From positions 1 through 21,635 of the IMG/VR virus record IMGVR_UViG_3300000547_000196: a DNA stretch of 21,635 nucleotides; one strand, 5' to 3'. Shown one piece after another: positions 6,337 to 12,647 of the stretch (position 1 is the stretch's first letter; every line of letters starts with the position of its first letter). A program made the translations under genes and the position numbers. The notes under the pieces were generated by a model, which saw only the letters and a list, made by a program, of their open reading frames with translations, did no database searches and was not told the DNA's origin. This stretch comes from a virus.

Positions 6337-6971
6337 CCGGAAAATACTTTTCGATTATCGAAGGCGCGATGCCAGCCAAAGAACTGCGCCTTGTAGTCTG
6401 AATGATCATCTGAGGATAGATCAATCCATTCCGACTTGCGTTTTAGCAGTTCTTCGACGCCTGCTTCCCAGTCTGTGTTTTCGATGATATGCTCAAGTTT
6501 CTGCTGTGCTTCTTGTGCTTCTTCTACGGTGAGAAAATCCTGCTCAACATGCATGACTTCCATGCAGATTTCTTGACTTACATAGTCTAGTGAAAAGTCT
6601 ATACCCCACTTGGGTTTGATTCCAAGCAGTTTATAGAGGATAGGTCTGTCTTTAGCAACTTCTTCCAATTGCTGTCTTGCTTCCCCTGCGAATGCCCAAC
6701 GTTCTATTATCATGCAGTGATCTAAAACAAGTCCTACTTCAGAGTCTTCGTCGTCTACATACCAATACTTCGCAGGAGAACGAGTAAATTGAATTTCTTC
6801 GTTTAATTCTTTGTTCATTGCGTCATAGTGCAATTTTTCTATTGGAGTAAGGATTTCATAGCCGTCCTTGTCGAAGTCTTGCAGTTTTAGAGTTTCTACA
6901 AGATTTCTTTCTATTGGCTGTGTGAGGTAGGGTTGTTCTGTAAAAGTAGGGTTGAGGTTTCTTAGTTTCAT
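6333..6971 (-). CDS. Uncharacterised 212-residue acidic protein
   Basis: A soluble, acidic protein starting MKLRNLNPTFTEQPYLTQP, rich in Glu, Asp, Trp and Tyr. No known catalytic motif, transmembrane segment or signal peptide was found. The N-terminal MKLRNLNPTFTE ends in a TE dipeptide, but it lacks the E-[FI]-[IV]-x-E core of the targeting peptides seen further upstream, so I do not group it with them. It overlaps the first pterin-dehydratase-like gene by 4 bases and is the last gene of the long upstream operon, ending inside the dsbA promoter. Function not recognised. Confidence 0.7.
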   Translation of the reverse strand: MKLRNLNPTFTEQPYLTQPIERNLVETLKLQDFDKDGYEILTPIEKLHYDAMNKELNEEIQFTRSPAKYWYVDDEDSEVGLVLDHCMIIERWAFAGEARQQLEEVAKDRPILYKLLGIKPKWGIDFSLDYVSQEICMEVMHVEQDFLTVEEAQEAQQKLEHIIENTDWEAGVEELLKRKSEWIDLSSDDHSDYKAQFFGWHRAFDNRKVFSG

Positions 6972-7282
6972 AAATCTTTTGCGTTCATTTTGTCTAGTAT
7001 TGAGTCTATGTGTAGGGCAAGTTCAAAGTCTTTGAGTGTGACTGAATCTGTATCGTGTGTAAAGAGAATAATCTCAACGGTATCATACACAAAGTAGAAA
7101 TGAGCGTGGTGATCCAGTTTGCGTTGGGGTTTTTCCGCTGCTAGAAAGAAACGAACTACTTGATTGTAATCTTCCAGTTCGGTTCGTTTTACTAGATAGT
7201 TTTTTTCAAACTTCCATGAACTTGCAAACTTGCTTTGTAGTGTTTCGATTTGATTGTCGGTAAGTTCGTTGTAATCACTCAT
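6968..7282 (-). CDS. Pterin-4a-carbinolamine dehydratase-like protein (copy 1)
   Basis: A 104-residue protein of the PCD/DCoH size class. The C-terminal half has the family layout: DHHAHFYFVYDTVEI (His58, His59), then FTHDTDSVTLKDFELA (His76, Asp77), then a helix IDSIL. In PCD, two adjacent His and the THD His form the site that dehydrates 4a-hydroxytetrahydrobiopterin. All three His are kept here, but the Pro that normally follows HH is Ala. Whether it is enzymatic is unknown; DCoH proteins also serve as dimerisation partners. It follows, with a 1-base overlap, a gene encoding a YGV-tailed protein, and a second PCD-like gene lies about 1.5 kb upstream in the same operon. Confidence 0.7.
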   Translation of the reverse strand: MSDYNELTDNQIETLQSKFASSWKFEKNYLVKRTELEDYNQVVRFFLAAEKPQRKLDHHAHFYFVYDTVEIILFTHDTDSVTLKDFELALHIDSILDKMNAKDL

Positions 7283-7626
7283 TACACGCCGTACCTATTT
7301 GTTTTCTTTTTGGCAACAGGACTTGTAGTGTATGTGTCAGGAGTTTCACCTTGGTCGTTTGTTGGATCCGCAATGTTGTCAAAACTTACGCCTTTTGCTC
7401 TCAAAAACTCTTCAAATTCCTGTTTTTCTTGATCCGAATAAAACATAGCCATAGCATTATTGCCTACTACATTGTAGGTATCTTTTTCTGCTCTAAACTC
7501 TTTCATCAGAGTAGAAAGGTCGTATGGTGTAATATCAATATTGAGAACTCTTTCCTGCGAAATGAGAGTTTCCATGAGAGAGAAAGTTTCTAAAATGTCT
7601 TTTATTTGACTTTTATCAGACTGCAT
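7282..7626 (-). CDS. YGV-tailed protein 1, possible virion-associated
   Basis: A 114-residue protein whose last 15 residues (TTSPVAKKKTNRYGV) are nearly identical to the tail of a second 114-residue protein encoded upstream (TTSPVAQKKKNKYGV). The rest of the two proteins shows no similarity by eye. The N-terminal part is acidic and helical, without the targeting peptide found in other members of the block. The shared tail suggests a common docking or sorting signal. It is coupled to the pterin-dehydratase-like gene that follows. Function unknown. Confidence 0.65.
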   Translation of the reverse strand: MQSDKSQIKDILETFSLMETLISQERVLNIDITPYDLSTLMKEFRAEKDTYNVVGNNAMAMFYSDQEKQEFEEFLRAKGVSFDNIADPTNDQGETPDTYTTSPVAKKKTNRYGV

Positions 7627-7629
7627 ATA

Positions 7630-8229
7630 TTATAACTTACTTAATATTTTTTCTGTTTTTTCGTCGTATGGCTCTATGTTCTTAATGTTTAATTCGCGTC
7701 GAACTCTTTCCAGTTCTTGTTTTATTTCACTGGGTTTGAGATCGCCGCTTTCATGATCTGCGTTTGCGGCAGTTAGACGTCCGCCGCCGAAGCCAAGAAT
7801 CACTCTAAAACCGGTAGGCTTTTTTACTATTCTAAAATTAGCACGATTTGTTGGCTCGGTGTTAAACTTTATTTCTTCGGCTAGTTTCTTGCCAAGATAG
7901 TTTTTATATGCTTTGGATTCTGCAGTTTCTTCTACGGCTTTCTCCATTTCAGCACCGTCGATGCCTGCATCAATTTCTTTTTCAATTGATTTTTCATATG
8001 CAAGATCGTTATAAACAGCGTCTATATAATCTGCTGCTTTTGTGATATAACTCTGCTGCCATGCTTGAAGCCCTTCTACTTCTGAAATGCTTTTTAATAG
8101 GTCGTGCAGTTTGATTGAATATTTAGAAAGTTTGTATAGTTCTGATCTTGCCATTTGAACTTCGTGGTCTTTTTCTGCTTTAGCAGCAAGATCGGCAAGT
8201 CCTTCTCGGATTTTTTGTTTGTTAGCCAT
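7630..8229 (-). CDS. Virion-associated helical domain protein (DHEVQMA type)
   Basis: The ATG at 8229 (MANKQKIREG) is preferred over an upstream in-frame TTG at 8244, because a GAGG ribosome-binding site and a late-type promoter precede it. The protein has 199 residues. The segment EKDHEVQMARSELYKLSKYSIKLHDLLKS...EGLQAWQQ...ITKAADYID (about 19-70) is, from memory, a helical domain repeated in many proteins of T4-like marine phages near structural genes. The second half contains KFNTEPTNRANFRIVKK and a Gly-rich FGGGR. It is likely a virion or scaffold component; no enzyme motif is visible. Confidence 0.65.
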   Translation of the reverse strand: MANKQKIREGLADLAAKAEKDHEVQMARSELYKLSKYSIKLHDLLKSISEVEGLQAWQQSYITKAADYIDAVYNDLAYEKSIEKEIDAGIDGAEMEKAVEETAESKAYKNYLGKKLAEEIKFNTEPTNRANFRIVKKPTGFRVILGFGGGRLTAANADHESGDLKPSEIKQELERVRRELNIKNIEPYDEKTEKILSKL

Positions 8230-8252: not shown

Positions 8253-8259
8253 TATTTAG
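8253..8259 (-). promoter_or_regulatory. Candidate T4-type late promoter
   Basis: The minus strand reads GCTAAATACTTT, a T4-late-like -10 box, 24 bases upstream of the ATG of the DHEVQMA-type gene with GAGG between them. It overlaps the stop codon of the preceding 71-aa gene. This is the best-placed of the CTAAATA boxes in the window, since the predicted start leaves a normal leader. Confidence 0.55.
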
Positions 8260-8471
8260 CGTTTTACAGCCTCGCCGCTGAACAAGTTTTTCTTTAGGTT
8301 AAGTGCGTTCTTAGCAGTGCCGTCTTTGTTTTTCGCCTGTGGAGCAATTGGCACGCCGTTTTTATCTCGTTTTATTTTTGCATTTGCTGCTGTAGGGTTA
8401 GCAACTGCTGCAACATTGCCTGCTGAAGTTGCACCTGATGTTGCTGCTTCTATTATTTCTCTCAACCTCAT
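8256..8471 (-). CDS. Small Ala/Asn-rich protein with capsid-targeting-like leader
   Basis: A 71-residue protein starting MRLREIIEAATSGATSAG. The first residues match the block-wide pattern M-[KR]-x-x-E-[IF]-I-x-E, and IIE-A offers an (I/L)-x-E cleavage site like that of the T4 gp21 prohead protease. The rest is low complexity (Ala, Asn, Lys, Gly) with KRDKNGVPIAPQAKNKDG, and appears disordered and basic. Proteins like this occur, from memory, in T4-like cyanophages. It is probably packaged in the head or bound to DNA; this is inference from the leader and composition. Confidence 0.65.
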   Translation of the reverse strand: MRLREIIEAATSGATSAGNVAAVANPTAANAKIKRDKNGVPIAPQAKNKDGTAKNALNLKKNLFSGEAVKR

Positions 8472-8472
8472 T

Positions 8473-8817
8473 TCAAACTCCGTATTTGTTCTTTTTCTTT
8501 TGTGCCACAGGTGACGTAGTATTTACGCCTTGCATTTCTTCTGATGTCTCTGTAGATAGCGGCTCGGAAGTAGTTCCAAGTCTTTTTTCTGTAGCATCGA
8601 CAATTTCTTTGTCACCGTCAGTATAGGCAACGGTTACACCTAGATTAGCAGCAGCGCCGTAGGTTTGAGGTGTCGTATGATCTGCCATTTGAGTAGAAAA
8701 ACGATATATCTTATAGGGAGAACTTGAAGGATATTCAGGATAACGACGCGCTCTTGATAGAGGAGCAGCGTAGCGGTTTTTCATCATTTTTTCTGTTATA
8801 AATTCACGTGCCTTCAT
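8473..8817 (-). CDS. YGV-tailed protein 2 with capsid-targeting-like leader
   Basis: A 114-residue protein starting MKAREFITEKMMKNRYAAPL. MKAREFITE is the closest match in the window to the T4 internal-protein targeting peptide (MKTYQEFIAE), with ITE-K as the candidate cleavage site. The mature part begins basic and Pro/Ser/Tyr-rich, then becomes acidic. It ends TTSPVAQKKKNKYGV, nearly the same tail as the protein encoded at 7282-7626. Its start overlaps the end of pterin-dehydratase-like copy 2 by 14 bases. The combination of leader and tail is the clearest hint that the YGV tail belongs to virion-packaged proteins. Confidence 0.65.
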   Translation of the reverse strand: MKAREFITEKMMKNRYAAPLSRARRYPEYPSSSPYKIYRFSTQMADHTTPQTYGAAANLGVTVAYTDGDKEIVDATEKRLGTTSEPLSTETSEEMQGVNTTSPVAQKKKNKYGV

Positions 8818-9097
8818 AAATCTTATCCATCTGTCTTGCTAATTTGTAATCAAGTTCTGTTAAACCATTGACATCGTGTGTATATATTCTTACAAGAAGT
8901 TCATTGTAGAAAAATGCAAAATCAGCAAAATGGTCTAGTTTTACTTGCACAGACTTTGTGTCTTCAAAAAAGTCAAGCACTGCGTCATAGTCGTCAAACA
9001 CAAACTTTTTCTGAAGCATCATACCTTTCACCATTTCCCAGCTTGGTGTATATTTTGCTCTTGCTTTTTCTGCGGTTTCGACATCCAGTTTCTTCAT
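8804..9097 (-). CDS. Pterin-4a-carbinolamine dehydratase-like protein (copy 2, altered site)
   Basis: A 97-residue protein with the PCD/DCoH pattern: LDHFADFAFFYNELLVRIYTHDVNGLTELDYKLA. The THD...GLT..D segment (His74, Asp75, then Gly78-Leu79-Thr80) is closer to the family consensus than copy 1. The second of the paired active-site His residues is Phe57, and the Pro after it is absent. The usual dehydratase chemistry may therefore be impaired. It is paralogous to the protein at 6968-7282, and both are adjacent to a YGV-tailed gene. It overlaps the HAD-fusion gene by an ATGA junction. Confidence 0.68.
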   Translation of the reverse strand: MKKLDVETAEKARAKYTPSWEMVKGMMLQKKFVFDDYDAVLDFFEDTKSVQVKLDHFADFAFFYNELLVRIYTHDVNGLTELDYKLARQMDKIYEGT

Positions 9098-10122
9098 GAT
9101 TTTTTTCTACCTGATTTCATATTAGCACACCAATGTGCCATTTTCTGTTCTTCGCCTGACGAATTTTTAGCCTGCTTTCTTAAAGCAGTTACACTTTTTG
9201 AGCAATCTACACCTGCTCTTTTTGCTCTACCAGGACGGCTCTTGCCTTTCTTTTTACCGTCTGCAAAGTTTTCGTTTTTCTTCTTACTTGCACAATGTGC
9301 CTTCTGTGAAAAACCTTTTGGATTAGAGCAGTTGATAGAATCCTTATACTTCTTGCTCCATTTTTCTTCTACAGGCTGATCTATATGCTGTTTGATATTT
9401 TTCGCAGTTCTTTCAAACTTGTGATCTTTGTGTTTAAATCCAATGCCGCCTGCTGATTCCCACTTTTGAATATTTACACCGTAATCGTCAATTAGAATAT
9501 TTGGTGTTCCGTCCGGCTGTGTAGCATACTTTGCTTTGTCGTGTTCGATAATAACCTGTTCGGGAGGAAAAAACTCTAAATGCTCTTTGACCCATAGTCT
9601 TTTGTGCGGTTCAGAGTTTTTATCTCCTGGCAGAGGCGAAGAAAGTATTTTGTATTTTCCTTTAACCTGTTTGATAAGGTTAAGAAGACTTTTTGCATTT
9701 GAAGTAAGCGGCAAATTGATCCAAAAGTCGTCTGTTTGTCTTATTTTTTCAAGTGCGTCGTCTATGTTGTGTTTTTTGTTAATATCACGCCAGTCTTCTA
9801 CGCCCATTAGATTAGCCCATGCATTGAAAAAGTCTGCGAGGACGCCGTCCATATCTACAAATATTTCTGTTGATTCTGCAATTTCGCCTACTGCTTCTTG
9901 ATACAAACGACGATTCTGTGATTCTGTCAAACCAAGGTTGAATAGAACATTTGTTTTAGAACCTTTCGTTTTCTTTGACAGAGAAGGAGGACGACCGTCT
10001 TTATCGACAGTATTGCCAAACTTCGCAGCCTGCTTTTTGATTTCTTGAGGACCAACATCTGCAGTTTGGTTCTGCTTGGTGATTCTGCCTACGCCGCCTT
10101 CTGTGATTTCTTGAAATCTCAT
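9094..10122 (-). CDS. Leader + HAD deoxyribonucleotidase-like + Cys/basic tail fusion
   Basis: The start at 10122 (MRFQEITEGG) makes an ATGA overlap with the preceding gene and exposes a targeting-like leader; an in-frame extension to 10188 is rejected. The product has 342 residues. Residues 1-8 end ITE-G, a candidate prohead-protease site. Residues 86-235 form a HAD domain like 5'(3')-deoxyribonucleotidases: VDMDGVLADF at 89-98 (D90, D92), LSSPLP at 160-165, and LIDDYGVNIQKW at 210-221 (D212, D213). The C-terminus carries two short Cys modules, SINCSNPKGFSQKAHC (262-277) and VDCSKSVTALRK...MAHWC (306-332), in a very basic context. The architecture suggests a virion-packaged, DNA-binding nucleotidase. 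Activity on dNMPs is inferred. Confidence 0.75.
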   Translation of the reverse strand: MRFQEITEGGVGRITKQNQTADVGPQEIKKQAAKFGNTVDKDGRPPSLSKKTKGSKTNVLFNLGLTESQNRRLYQEAVGEIAESTEIFVDMDGVLADFFNAWANLMGVEDWRDINKKHNIDDALEKIRQTDDFWINLPLTSNAKSLLNLIKQVKGKYKILSSPLPGDKNSEPHKRLWVKEHLEFFPPEQVIIEHDKAKYATQPDGTPNILIDDYGVNIQKWESAGGIGFKHKDHKFERTAKNIKQHIDQPVEEKWSKKYKDSINCSNPKGFSQKAHCASKKKNENFADGKKKGKSRPGRAKRAGVDCSKSVTALRKQAKNSSGEEQKMAHWCANMKSGRKKS

Positions 10123-10343
10123 TTTTTCTTGCGTCCCCTCAATCCCCGCGGATATTCCTGTCCTTTCCAAAGCGGACGAGAAAACCACAACTTAAACCAT
10201 TCTTCTGTGCCAGGTTGAATGTTTTTCTCTCTTTCAATTTCTTTTTTTTCTGTGCCTGTGACAGAGATATTCGATCCTTCATAGGGAGTATAACCCTTAA
10301 ACTCATTTATACCAGCAAGCCGTTTGAGTTCCTTAATATCCAT
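10119..10343 (-). CDS. Small basic protein with EWFKLWFSRP motif
   Basis: A 74-residue protein starting MDIKELKRLAGINEF and ending in a basic RGLRGRKKK. The central GTEEWFKLWFSRPLW motif is one I associate with small proteins of T4-like marine phages. The N-terminus differs from the MKxxEFI-type leaders, yet an INE-F site at about 12-14 could be cut by a prohead protease, so it may be a variant leader. It shares one base with the preceding gene (TAATG) and four with the next (ATGA), so translation is tightly coupled. Function unknown; head-associated by context. Confidence 0.6.
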   Translation of the reverse strand: MDIKELKRLAGINEFKGYTPYEGSNISVTGTEKKEIEREKNIQPGTEEWFKLWFSRPLWKGQEYPRGLRGRKKK

Positions 10344-11191
10344 TAGTCGCCTTGCAGACCCTTCATTGTAGATTGATAATACATATCATTTACATTTTTA
10401 TGCTGCTCTCTTGCAGCCTTCATTACGATCTGCGCCCACTTAGCTCGTGCGTTTGGTTCATTCTTGAGAAGTTTTCTTAACTCTTTTTCGTTATTAGGAA
10501 TACTTCCTAATCCCGTACGTAATTTTCCAAATGTATTTAGAAATTCTTCCATCGTTGATCGTGTAAATCCGTCTTGAGCAATTTTTTCAATTGAGCCTGC
10601 TGCTTGTATTGCAAGTTCCTGTTGATTCCTGCCTCCAAATTGATTTTTTGTTTTGTCTAATTTGCGGAGTTTCGTGTAGATATCATCGACCATCTTTTCC
10701 ATTTTTGCACGCATTTTAGGCATAAAGGTATCGTTCATGTAATTGTATATTTCTTCAGCACCTCCTGCTAGAGGATCTGCATTATCTTCTTCGCCTGACG
10801 TCTTATCTCTTGAAACATATAAAAAGTTGTCTGCTGATATTTGATAAAGTTTTCCTCTAGTAGTCATTCCTTTTGCTGCAGTTTTTAGACTATCTGTGCT
10901 TTCGATGTTAAATTCTCCGTTTGCAAGAGTAATTCTCTGATAGAAAGACGGCCCCATCATGGGTCCTGTGTCTGGTCGTTTTAGAACAGCAACTACATCG
11001 TCGTTTGGCAGGACATTTATTATCATGTTTCCGTCCTGTATATCAGAGGCTTTTGGTTTCCCTTCTACCGGTGCAATCTCTGTGTCATGCGAAAATTTGA
11101 ACTTGCGTAAAATGTTTTTTGCAAATTCGTCTGGAATTCCTGCTTCTCTAAAATTATTTAAATCTTCTGTGATTATTTCTGATAACTTCAT
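10343..11191 (-). CDS. Helical virion-associated protein with capsid-targeting-like leader
   Basis: The start at 11191 (MKLSEIITEDLNNF) is chosen because it leaves one base after the preceding stop codon and exposes the block-wide leader; an upstream in-frame start at 11221 lies inside the preceding gene. The product has 282 residues. IITE-D gives the candidate (I/L)-x-E cleavage site. The body has a mixed N-terminal half with GPMMGPSFYQR and a Lys/Glu-rich helical second half (about 135-230) with QFGGRNQQELAIQAAGSIE. No catalytic motif is visible. Proposed to be packaged in the head on the basis of the leader alone. Confidence 0.62.
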   Translation of the reverse strand: MKLSEIITEDLNNFREAGIPDEFAKNILRKFKFSHDTEIAPVEGKPKASDIQDGNMIINVLPNDDVVAVLKRPDTGPMMGPSFYQRITLANGEFNIESTDSLKTAAKGMTTRGKLYQISADNFLYVSRDKTSGEEDNADPLAGGAEEIYNYMNDTFMPKMRAKMEKMVDDIYTKLRKLDKTKNQFGGRNQQELAIQAAGSIEKIAQDGFTRSTMEEFLNTFGKLRTGLGSIPNNEKELRKLLKNEPNARAKWAQIVMKAAREQHKNVNDMYYQSTMKGLQGD

Positions 11192-11192
11192 T

Positions 11193-11531
11193 TTAGTATT
11201 CGCCCTTTTTAATATTCTCAATTTCTTCCGAGCAGACTTTCTCTATCATTCGGGTCCTGTCTTCGAGAGAAAAAATCTGTGAGGGAGTCTTGCCCAGTTT
11301 AAACTTTTTGCAGTAGGTATTCATACCTGAATCTATAACGCCGCCGAATATACGTTCTGCGTCTATTCTTTTCTTTTTGTTGACATCATCTTTTAGTTGC
11401 ATAAGAGCAGGATAGTATTTTCTACGATAGAACATAGGGTCGTTACGCATGAATGTCACAGCGTCGTCGCAGGGATCGAACTTTAGTTTGATGGGCTCTC
11501 CTGGTCTATCGTCTATTTCATTAATCCTCAT
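11193..11531 (-). CDS. Small conserved Cys-containing protein, targeting-like start
   Basis: The start at 11531 (MRINEIDDRPGEPIKL) gives 112 residues and an 11-base overlap with the preceding gene; a longer frame to 11606 lies inside that gene and is rejected. The core DPCDDAVTFMRNDPMFYRRKYYPAL, then ERIFGGVIDSGMNTYCKKF and KVCSEEIENI, has three Cys residues and reads as a compact helical domain. The leader MRINEI matches the first half of the targeting pattern but lacks the I-x-E site, so it is a weak member. I think I have seen this domain in other T4-like phages, without a known function. Confidence 0.62.
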   Translation of the reverse strand: MRINEIDDRPGEPIKLKFDPCDDAVTFMRNDPMFYRRKYYPALMQLKDDVNKKKRIDAERIFGGVIDSGMNTYCKKFKLGKTPSQIFSLEDRTRMIEKVCSEEIENIKKGEY

Positions 11532-11994
11532 CTTCGGTTTCCTTTTCTTCAAAGTCTGCACTCTTCTGCCATTCGTAGGATACTTTGTCTTCTTCGATAG
11601 GACCACCCTTTGCCCAGGTTCTGCAACTTCTCGCAGAGTGACACTTGAAGTGATGCATCCAGCAGTAGCCTAATTCTCCATCTTCGTCTGAAGTAGGACC
11701 AGGCAAGCAGTCTTTCATTCTTGGTGAAATGTCAAACGCAGTGCAGTTACCGCATAGACTAGATTTTGCGGCTTTTTCAGTTGTGCTCCAAAAGTCTGCA
11801 ATTTCCTGCCAATAGTCTCCTGGCTCATCTACATTTAGAGGACCATACTGTATATGATCTGCCTGTATTGCACGGTTTCTATTTTCCGTATTTTTCTGTA
11901 GATCCTCTGTAGCAGGAGGACAGGGCATTTTTGCTTCTGTTAATTTAAGTGAAAATTCTCGATTCTGTATTGCTGCAATTTCTTCTAATTTCAT
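11521..11994 (-). CDS. HiPIP-like Cys-rich protein with targeting leader
   Basis: A 157-residue protein. Its leader starts MKLEEIAAIQ and ends KLTE-A at residue 20, a prohead-protease-like site. The core has six Cys: C81-x2-C84-x11-C96-x14-C111-x6-C118-x5-C124, with two His between C111 and C118. The first four Cys, the PG after C96 and the Gly-Tyr-Cys-Trp at C111 resemble the cluster ligands of high-potential iron-sulfur proteins (CxxC-x16-C-x13-C). An Fe-S or zinc site is therefore plausible. The C-terminus is acidic. An ATGA overlap joins it to the preceding gene. Virion packaging and metal type are both inference. Confidence 0.65.
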   Translation of the reverse strand: MKLEEIAAIQNREFSLKLTEAKMPCPPATEDLQKNTENRNRAIQADHIQYGPLNVDEPGDYWQEIADFWSTTEKAAKSSLCGNCTAFDISPRMKDCLPGPTSDEDGELGYCWMHHFKCHSARSCRTWAKGGPIEEDKVSYEWQKSADFEEKETEDED

Positions 11995-12647
11995 CTTTTT
12001 GTTCCTATTGTTAAAGCAGGCTTTGGTATACGCATTTTTTCTCTAGGATTGTCTACTACGCTGTCAAACTTCAAATCAAAAACTCTATTACCGTCTTTGT
12101 CTTCTGCGTCTATACCAATAATGTATCTACCATTGTCAATTAAATCGGCTTTCTGTGCTACCTTGCCAGGCAATGGTACGGCAGGAACTTTTGTAGTTCC
12201 TTCTGCATCTTTGACGTTTCTAATTGCACTTTTTTTAAATCCTTCTGATCTAAGAAGATCTGGATATTGTTCCATTTCTTCTCCTGCTATAACTAGCTTA
12301 GGACCTTCTATAATTTTAGCATAGAAAGTTTCTGTAGGATCTTTTAACATACCAGTTGCAAATCGAACATTAAAATCGATTATAGCGTCTCTTGACACTC
12401 TTTTTCTTTCTTCATCTCTACTATCGATAGATTTTTTTAGGTTTTCTATTGCTTCTTCTTGTGTACCGCCTGCCTGTTTGTCTAGTTCTTCTCGAGTTCT
12501 CGGGTGTATAGCATAGGCTATAAAGTGTTTGTTCATTACTTTTTGATTTGTGGCATATATGTTGACATGTTTGTATGATTCTATTTTATCAACATTTTTG
12601 CTTGAAGTTATATCTAGTTCTTGTAAAACAAATTCGTGTAATCTCAT
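11991..12647 (-). CDS. Uncharacterised protein with capsid-targeting-like leader
   Basis: A 218-residue protein starting MRLHEFVLQELDITSSK, in which MRLHEFVLQE fits the leader pattern with LQE-L as the possible cut. The body contains KHFIAYAIHPRTREELDKQAGG, a charged helix around residues 80-105, and a C-terminal beta-rich segment (DNGRYIIGIDAEDKDGNRVFDLKFDS) resembling a small beta domain. No enzyme motif was recognised. It begins three bases after the preceding stop and overlaps the following Cys-rich gene by ATGA. Proposed internal head protein on leader evidence. Confidence 0.62.
   Translation of the reverse strand: MRLHEFVLQELDITSSKNVDKIESYKHVNIYATNQKVMNKHFIAYAIHPRTREELDKQAGGTQEEAIENLKKSIDSRDEERKRVSRDAIIDFNVRFATGMLKDPTETFYAKIIEGPKLVIAGEEMEQYPDLLRSEGFKKSAIRNVKDAEGTTKVPAVPLPGKVAQKADLIDNGRYIIGIDAEDKDGNRVFDLKFDSVVDNPREKMRIPKPALTIGTKR

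Follow-up and report, generated by a model that had tools for sequence, protein, structure and literature searches.

Short T4-type leaders at gene starts of an uncultured marine giant phage, and a copy of the capsid N-fist behind one of them

Short N-terminal leaders of the CTS type are present at true gene starts of an uncultured, T4-related marine giant phage, far above chance. The window analysed (21,635 nucleotides, 21.6 kb) forms the start of a linear virus contig of 106,249 bp. Based on the sequences, T4-like capsid targeting and prohead processing is the best reading of these leaders, because a peptidase S77 is present in relatives and the leaders or their junctions are conserved in orthologues. 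Prohead targeting, S77 cleavage and, for a 71-aa protein which carries a copy of the capsid N-fist, docking in the shell form together the best explanation, to which we give a probability of roughly four in five. An earlier note on this DNA had proposed a T4-like set of head cargo proteins; targeting and cleavage stand as the best reading, but the run of genes is not pure cargo. The N-fist copy goes beyond that note, as does the fusion of one body behind another domain in relatives.

Concerning the relatives of the contig, the best matches of its DNA polymerase among named phages are jumbo members of the T4 superfamily (Phosso, Vibrio 2.275.O, Atu_ph07 and 121Q; 44-50% identity), and many uncultured IMG/VR contigs match it at 78-100% identity. 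The latter include the syntenic G001 (357,559 bp), so the contig is probably a genome fragment.

The strict leader pattern was defined as M-[KR]-x-x-[EDQ]-hydrophobic...E. On the contig it is found at 10 of 165 first ATGs (nine of them real) vs 0 of 351 internal Met (p=9e-6), and in the IMG/VR relatives at 177 of 2644 first ATGs vs 3 of 7315 internal Met, in 29 body clusters; the relatedness of the rows lowers the effective numbers, and as the gene starts were also called by a simple script, the p-values are indicative. A scan for further leader genes, as the earlier note had proposed, gave four more beyond the window (Table 1). Two of these are adjacent paralogues which share RKFRC.SGPRKGR and are candidate DNA-binding internal head proteins.

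Table 1. Leader genes and associated features, in positions of the window (last four lines: positions of the contig); a slash marks a junction
Feature	Position	Strand	Basis or remark
71-aa leader protein with capsid N-fist copy, putative analogue of T4 gp61.1	8256-8471	-	residues 1-24 match PHROG 17311 (function unknown)
Leader MRLREIIE, predicted cut after E8	8448-8471	-	motif enrichment; E adjoining module in 26/26
N-fist copy AATSGATSAGNVAAV	8403-8447	-	best non-capsid match to relatives' N-fists; alignment; capsid N-termini in six genomes
114-aa protein, leader MKAREFITE (8791-8817)	8473-8817	-	strict leader
Pterin-4a-carbinolamine dehydratase-like protein, leaderless, within run	8804-9097	-	Pfam PF01329 7e-18; NCBIfam below cut-off
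Deoxyribonucleotidase (NT5C), leader MRFQEITE (10099-10122), C-terminal basic Cys module CSNPKGFSQKAHC	9094-10122	-	PHROG 2643 9e-22; PF06941
74-aa protein, start MDIKELKRLAGINE (10302-10343)	10119-10343	-	partial; 55 distinct homologues
282-aa orphan, leader MKLSEIITE (11165-11191)	10343-11191	-	strict leader; body fused in two relatives
112-aa protein, partial leader MRINEI	11193-11531	-	45 distinct homologues
157-aa protein, long leader MKLEEIAAIQNREFSLKLTE (11935-11994)	11521-11994	-	long form
218-aa orphan, leader MRLHEFVLQE (12618-12647)	11991-12647	-	strict leader
199-aa conserved protein, short start MANKQKIRE/GLADLA, candidate extra member	7630-8229	-	67 distinct homologues
Leader MRFHEFRILE	78926		strict-motif scan
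Leader MKISEILNE	103863		strict-motif scan
Leader MKVEEILE (locus L005)	104144-104410		very basic small protein
Leader MRISEITE (locus L005)	104407-104694		very basic small protein

All N-termini quoted in the earlier note are present in the window, on the minus strand. It had counted seven to eight consecutive leader genes; five strict leaders, one long and two partial ones are found, but a leaderless gene (8804-9097) lies inside the run. The regex match of this gene is false, and its product, an enzyme of the PF01329 family, was rejected as a leader protein. The bodies are mutually unrelated, as had been stated, except for small recurring modules. No confident function was found in Pfam, PHROGs and NCBIfam for the proteins at 8473, 10119, 10343, 11193, 11521 and 11991, and the predicted structure of the 282-aa orphan (pLDDT 63) has no convincing PDB match. 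The only homologue found for the 218-aa orphan is a near-identical copy. Most homologues of the 199-aa protein start ..[IVL]-x-E-G, and it may tentatively be added to the leader set.

The leaderless protein has a diverged paralogue at 6968-7282, and the two pterin-4a-carbinolamine dehydratase-like genes flank leader genes. Their enzymatic activity is doubtful, since both score under the curated NCBIfam cut-offs and the protein at 8804-9097 reads DHFADF where a HHPDW-type motif is usual. An identical C-terminal tail (TTSPVA.KKK.N.YGV) is shared by the proteins at 7282-7626 and 8473-8817, of which only the second has a leader; cyanophage-type proteins at the loci L273 (S-SKS1) and L274 (AG-345-L05) end in a similar stretch (PPV.KKKRKPTP.GRYG). 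The basic Cys module SINCSNPKGFSQKAHC of the C-terminal part of the nucleotidase recurs in cyanophage proteins (S-SM2, Bellamy), whose genes adjoin terminase and tail-fibre genes; the S-SM2 protein SSM2_108, described below, is among them. Also, a protein of G001 (224780-225871, locus L190) has the leader MRLRQIFE and a nucleotidyltransferase-like body (weak, sub-threshold Pfam matches), which indicates that enzyme bodies vary among relatives.

The earlier note expected the leaders to be conserved in homologues; what is kept is at least the hydrophobic-x-E junction, while the leader sequences themselves vary. In the homologues of the nucleotidase, E stands right before a conserved module in all 39 distinct junctions and P3 is hydrophobic in 38 of them (background 31.5%), and the leaders in front are near-freely variable (MKLRELFE, MRYKDIKLAE, MRLRQIYE, MKISDLLE, or forms of about 30 residues). 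The leader of the 114-aa protein is kept in the loci of three relatives (MKAREFITE, MKMKELLTE), and the body of the 157-aa protein follows in relatives another leader, which ends in I-x-E before A (MREYIKIIE/A). The body of the 282-aa orphan is fused in two relatives behind another domain; there it has no start of its own and retains the I-x-E junction (GISE/SVQ in the fusion vs IITE/DLN in the window), which is expected of a protease site and would not be predicted by a simple docking tag. The start of the 74-aa protein differs from the strict leader in its conserved LAG[IV]xE, an alternative junction which, as LAGIxE, also precedes N-fist copies. The homologues of the 112-aa protein start M-[KR]-x-x-E-F/I/L; the cleavable E is often missing in them and the hydrophobic-x-E junction is not retained.

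A gp21-type protease in the genome was a further expectation of the earlier note. No such S77 protease is found on the contig, which is partial, but peptidase S77 (gp21) is present in the relatives G001, G003, G004 and G009, as well as in every named comparison phage searched; a search of five other IMG/VR records, all of them incomplete, gave none. In the syntenic G001 the gene lies within a portal-gp21-gp22-gp23 cluster (gp22 and portal assigned by position and sequence). In G001 and G003 the processing context of the capsid protein, positioned by alignment with T4 gp23, is LAE/S and LAE/A, respectively, which matches the hydrophobic-x-E of the leaders.

Based on the above, the leader genes would encode precursors bound for the prohead, and the short N-terminal leader would carry each body into the assembling core. 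A gp21-type S77 protease would cut behind the E of hydrophobic-x-E, leaving the body in the head; these bodies would comprise the deoxyribonucleotidase with its basic Cys module, the very basic small proteins elsewhere on the contig and the orphans. They might subsequently be injected.

Two other explanations of the shared start were considered. Chance or a composition bias at translation starts, where K/R and E are common, has produced the false regex match at 8804-9097, and a slightly wider pattern, applied in the same type of scan, is not significantly enriched in five other T4-superfamily genomes (T4, Syn9, HTVC008M, S-SM2 and Vibrio 2.275.O). The wider pattern does recover T4 ipII, ipIII and 61.1, however, and with the strong contrast between gene starts and internal Met in the group of the contig and the conservation of the leader across orthologues, such an origin is very improbable. 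That the leader is an uncleaved docking tag for another partner (e.g. a scaffold or a chaperone) would suit the family of the 112-aa protein, which retains M-[KR]-x-x-E-F yet often lacks the cleavable E. We consider this unlikely, as hydrophobic-x-E is constant where the tag residues vary or vanish and the junction agrees with the capsid processing site. Targeting followed by cleavage is thus preferred.

The evidence for N-fist mimicry in the 71-aa protein is strong at the level of sequence. The contig has no major capsid protein gene, and the capsid proteins of relatives served for the comparison. After its leader the 71-aa protein continues as E/AATSGATSAGNVA, a near copy of the mature capsid N-terminus (E/AATAGATSAGNVA); its post-leader segment AATSGATSAGNVAAV can be set beside AATAGATSAGNVATL, which follows the predicted cut in the capsid protein of G003. 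When the proteome of the contig was queried with the N-fists of relatives, the 71-aa protein was the top non-capsid match, above 200 shuffled queries. In the reverse direction (tblastn against whole genomes) it matched the capsid N-terminus in G001, G003, Phosso, Atu_ph07, 2.275.O and 121Q, as the sole match in the last four, with marginal single E-values (0.008-0.14); with the threshold set at E 0.01, tblastn gave no match to it in named phages. What precedes the module in relatives may be a leader, LAGIxE or a long domain; in all 26 sequences (26/26), which include two capsid proteins, the residue immediately before it is E. This jumbo-type copy has a length of about 15 residues, which is short, and a high content of A, G, S and T. 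No mimic was found in Vibrio 2.275.O by N-fist proteome query and tblastn, nor in Phosso, Atu_ph07 and 121Q by tblastn with the 71-aa protein, so that the copy is dispensable.

The same build is seen in gene 61.1 of T4 (MKTFKEFIKE/DMVAGDSGGNPENISIGTTSGAVVNKGP vs E/AEIGGDHGYNATNIAAGQTSGAVTQIGP in gp23) and in SSM2_108 of S-SM2 (MKTLKQFLKE/TPTNSVGNGGYTSAGGQTVAGYD vs E/QPTNAVGNGGYTSSGGQTVAGFD in its own capsid protein). In whole-proteome N-fist queries of T4, S-SM2 and G001 the small leader gene is the top non-capsid match and beats every shuffled query; similarity scores of N-fist and copy are high when both come from one lineage and drop to background when the lineages differ. Relatives of gp61.1 are found in 1,438 phage records, and in several groups they are the C-terminal part of a longer protein; the gene usually lies right before that of the primase. 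Some GenBank records label 61.1 'major capsid protein', which is consistent with the N-fist resemblance. In the open-access papers searched, neither a function for 61.1 nor a report of its N-fist copy was found. A candidate in S-SKS1 failed against its own capsid protein and was rejected as a further mimic. The loci L273 and L274 contain NN.S.G.IAGL...PPV.KKK segments, which resemble the PTNSTG with which cyanophage-type capsid N-fists start and may be a further type of copy.

In T4 the N-fist comprises residues 66-91 of gp23*, a region without order in the prohead that on expansion shifts outward, touches four subunits and contributes to the Soc site. It is reported for gp23 and not for gp24, and those N-fists that face the portal are disordered (PMC7136217, PMC9958956). 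The mature capsid N-terminus of T4 folds into this N-fist, which clamps neighbouring subunits after expansion. In the 71-aa protein, removal of the leader would expose an N-terminus copying that of the mature capsid protein, and the processed protein would dock in N-fist acceptor sites left empty by the capsid protein, e.g. near gp24 vertices or the portal. We infer that the 71-aa protein, gp61.1 and SSM2_108 are processed capsid-docking peptides which could occupy acceptor sites vacant in the shell. A T4-superfamily class of head-targeted, protease-activated N-fist peptides, plugging vertex or portal-side sites or tethering cargo to the shell, is a tentative proposal with somewhat less than even chances.

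It is also possible, at odds well below even, that the leaders are cleaved tags and the resemblance is a relic of a gene 23 fragment that became joined to a leader, or an extended protease recognition site, with no docking. The similarity tracks lineage, as repeated copying from the phage's own capsid gene would yield, and the copy starts exactly at the junction. A requirement of the protease for N-fist similarity is ruled out by T4 ipII and ipIII, which carry the leader without the copy, and the retention of the module across many phages and in differing protein contexts also speaks against this alternative. Under the docking proposal, a testable function is offered for gene 61.1, which has relatives in over 1,400 phage records, in T4, one of the best-studied viruses. 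The leaders would extend the T4 capsid-targeting system to a group of uncultured marine giant phages, with enzymes among the probable passengers, and would be natural tags for loading proteins into capsids.

That T4-like phages load varied proteins by CTS is established (PMC9026906, PMC3012670). The leaders of the contig resemble those of the T4 internal proteins (ipII, ipIII; CTS MKTYQEFIAE) in the short M-K start, the acidic and hydrophobic core and the predicted cut after the E of I/L-x-E, and the two systems share unrelated bodies behind a common tag and a gp21-type protease in the lineage, for the contig that of its relatives. The contig leaders vary more and are in many cases shorter by one or two residues; the bodies behind them include enzymes, e.g. 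the nucleotidase, some junctions of the group are distant from the start or within fusions, and their packaging is predicted. In phiKZ-like phages (SPN3US, phiKZ) many head proteins are freed of propeptides by a prohead protease that cleaves behind E (PMC5694885), as is predicted for the leaders of the contig; SPN3US has an A-x-E site and its own type of protease, whereas the contig group has a predicted hydrophobic-x-E and S77/gp21 in relatives. T4 gp61.1 (PHROG 1823; longer form PHROG 2086) shares with the 71-aa protein the leader or upstream domain, the junction E, the N-fist copy of its own lineage and behind it a tail that is for the most part basic. The N-fist types of the two are unlike, and the 71-aa protein has no homology to PHROG 1823/2086, which T4 61.1 matches; it matches PHROG 17311 and, weakly, one unrelated PHROG. 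It appears therefore to resemble gp61.1 in build, yet to lie outside its PHROG family.
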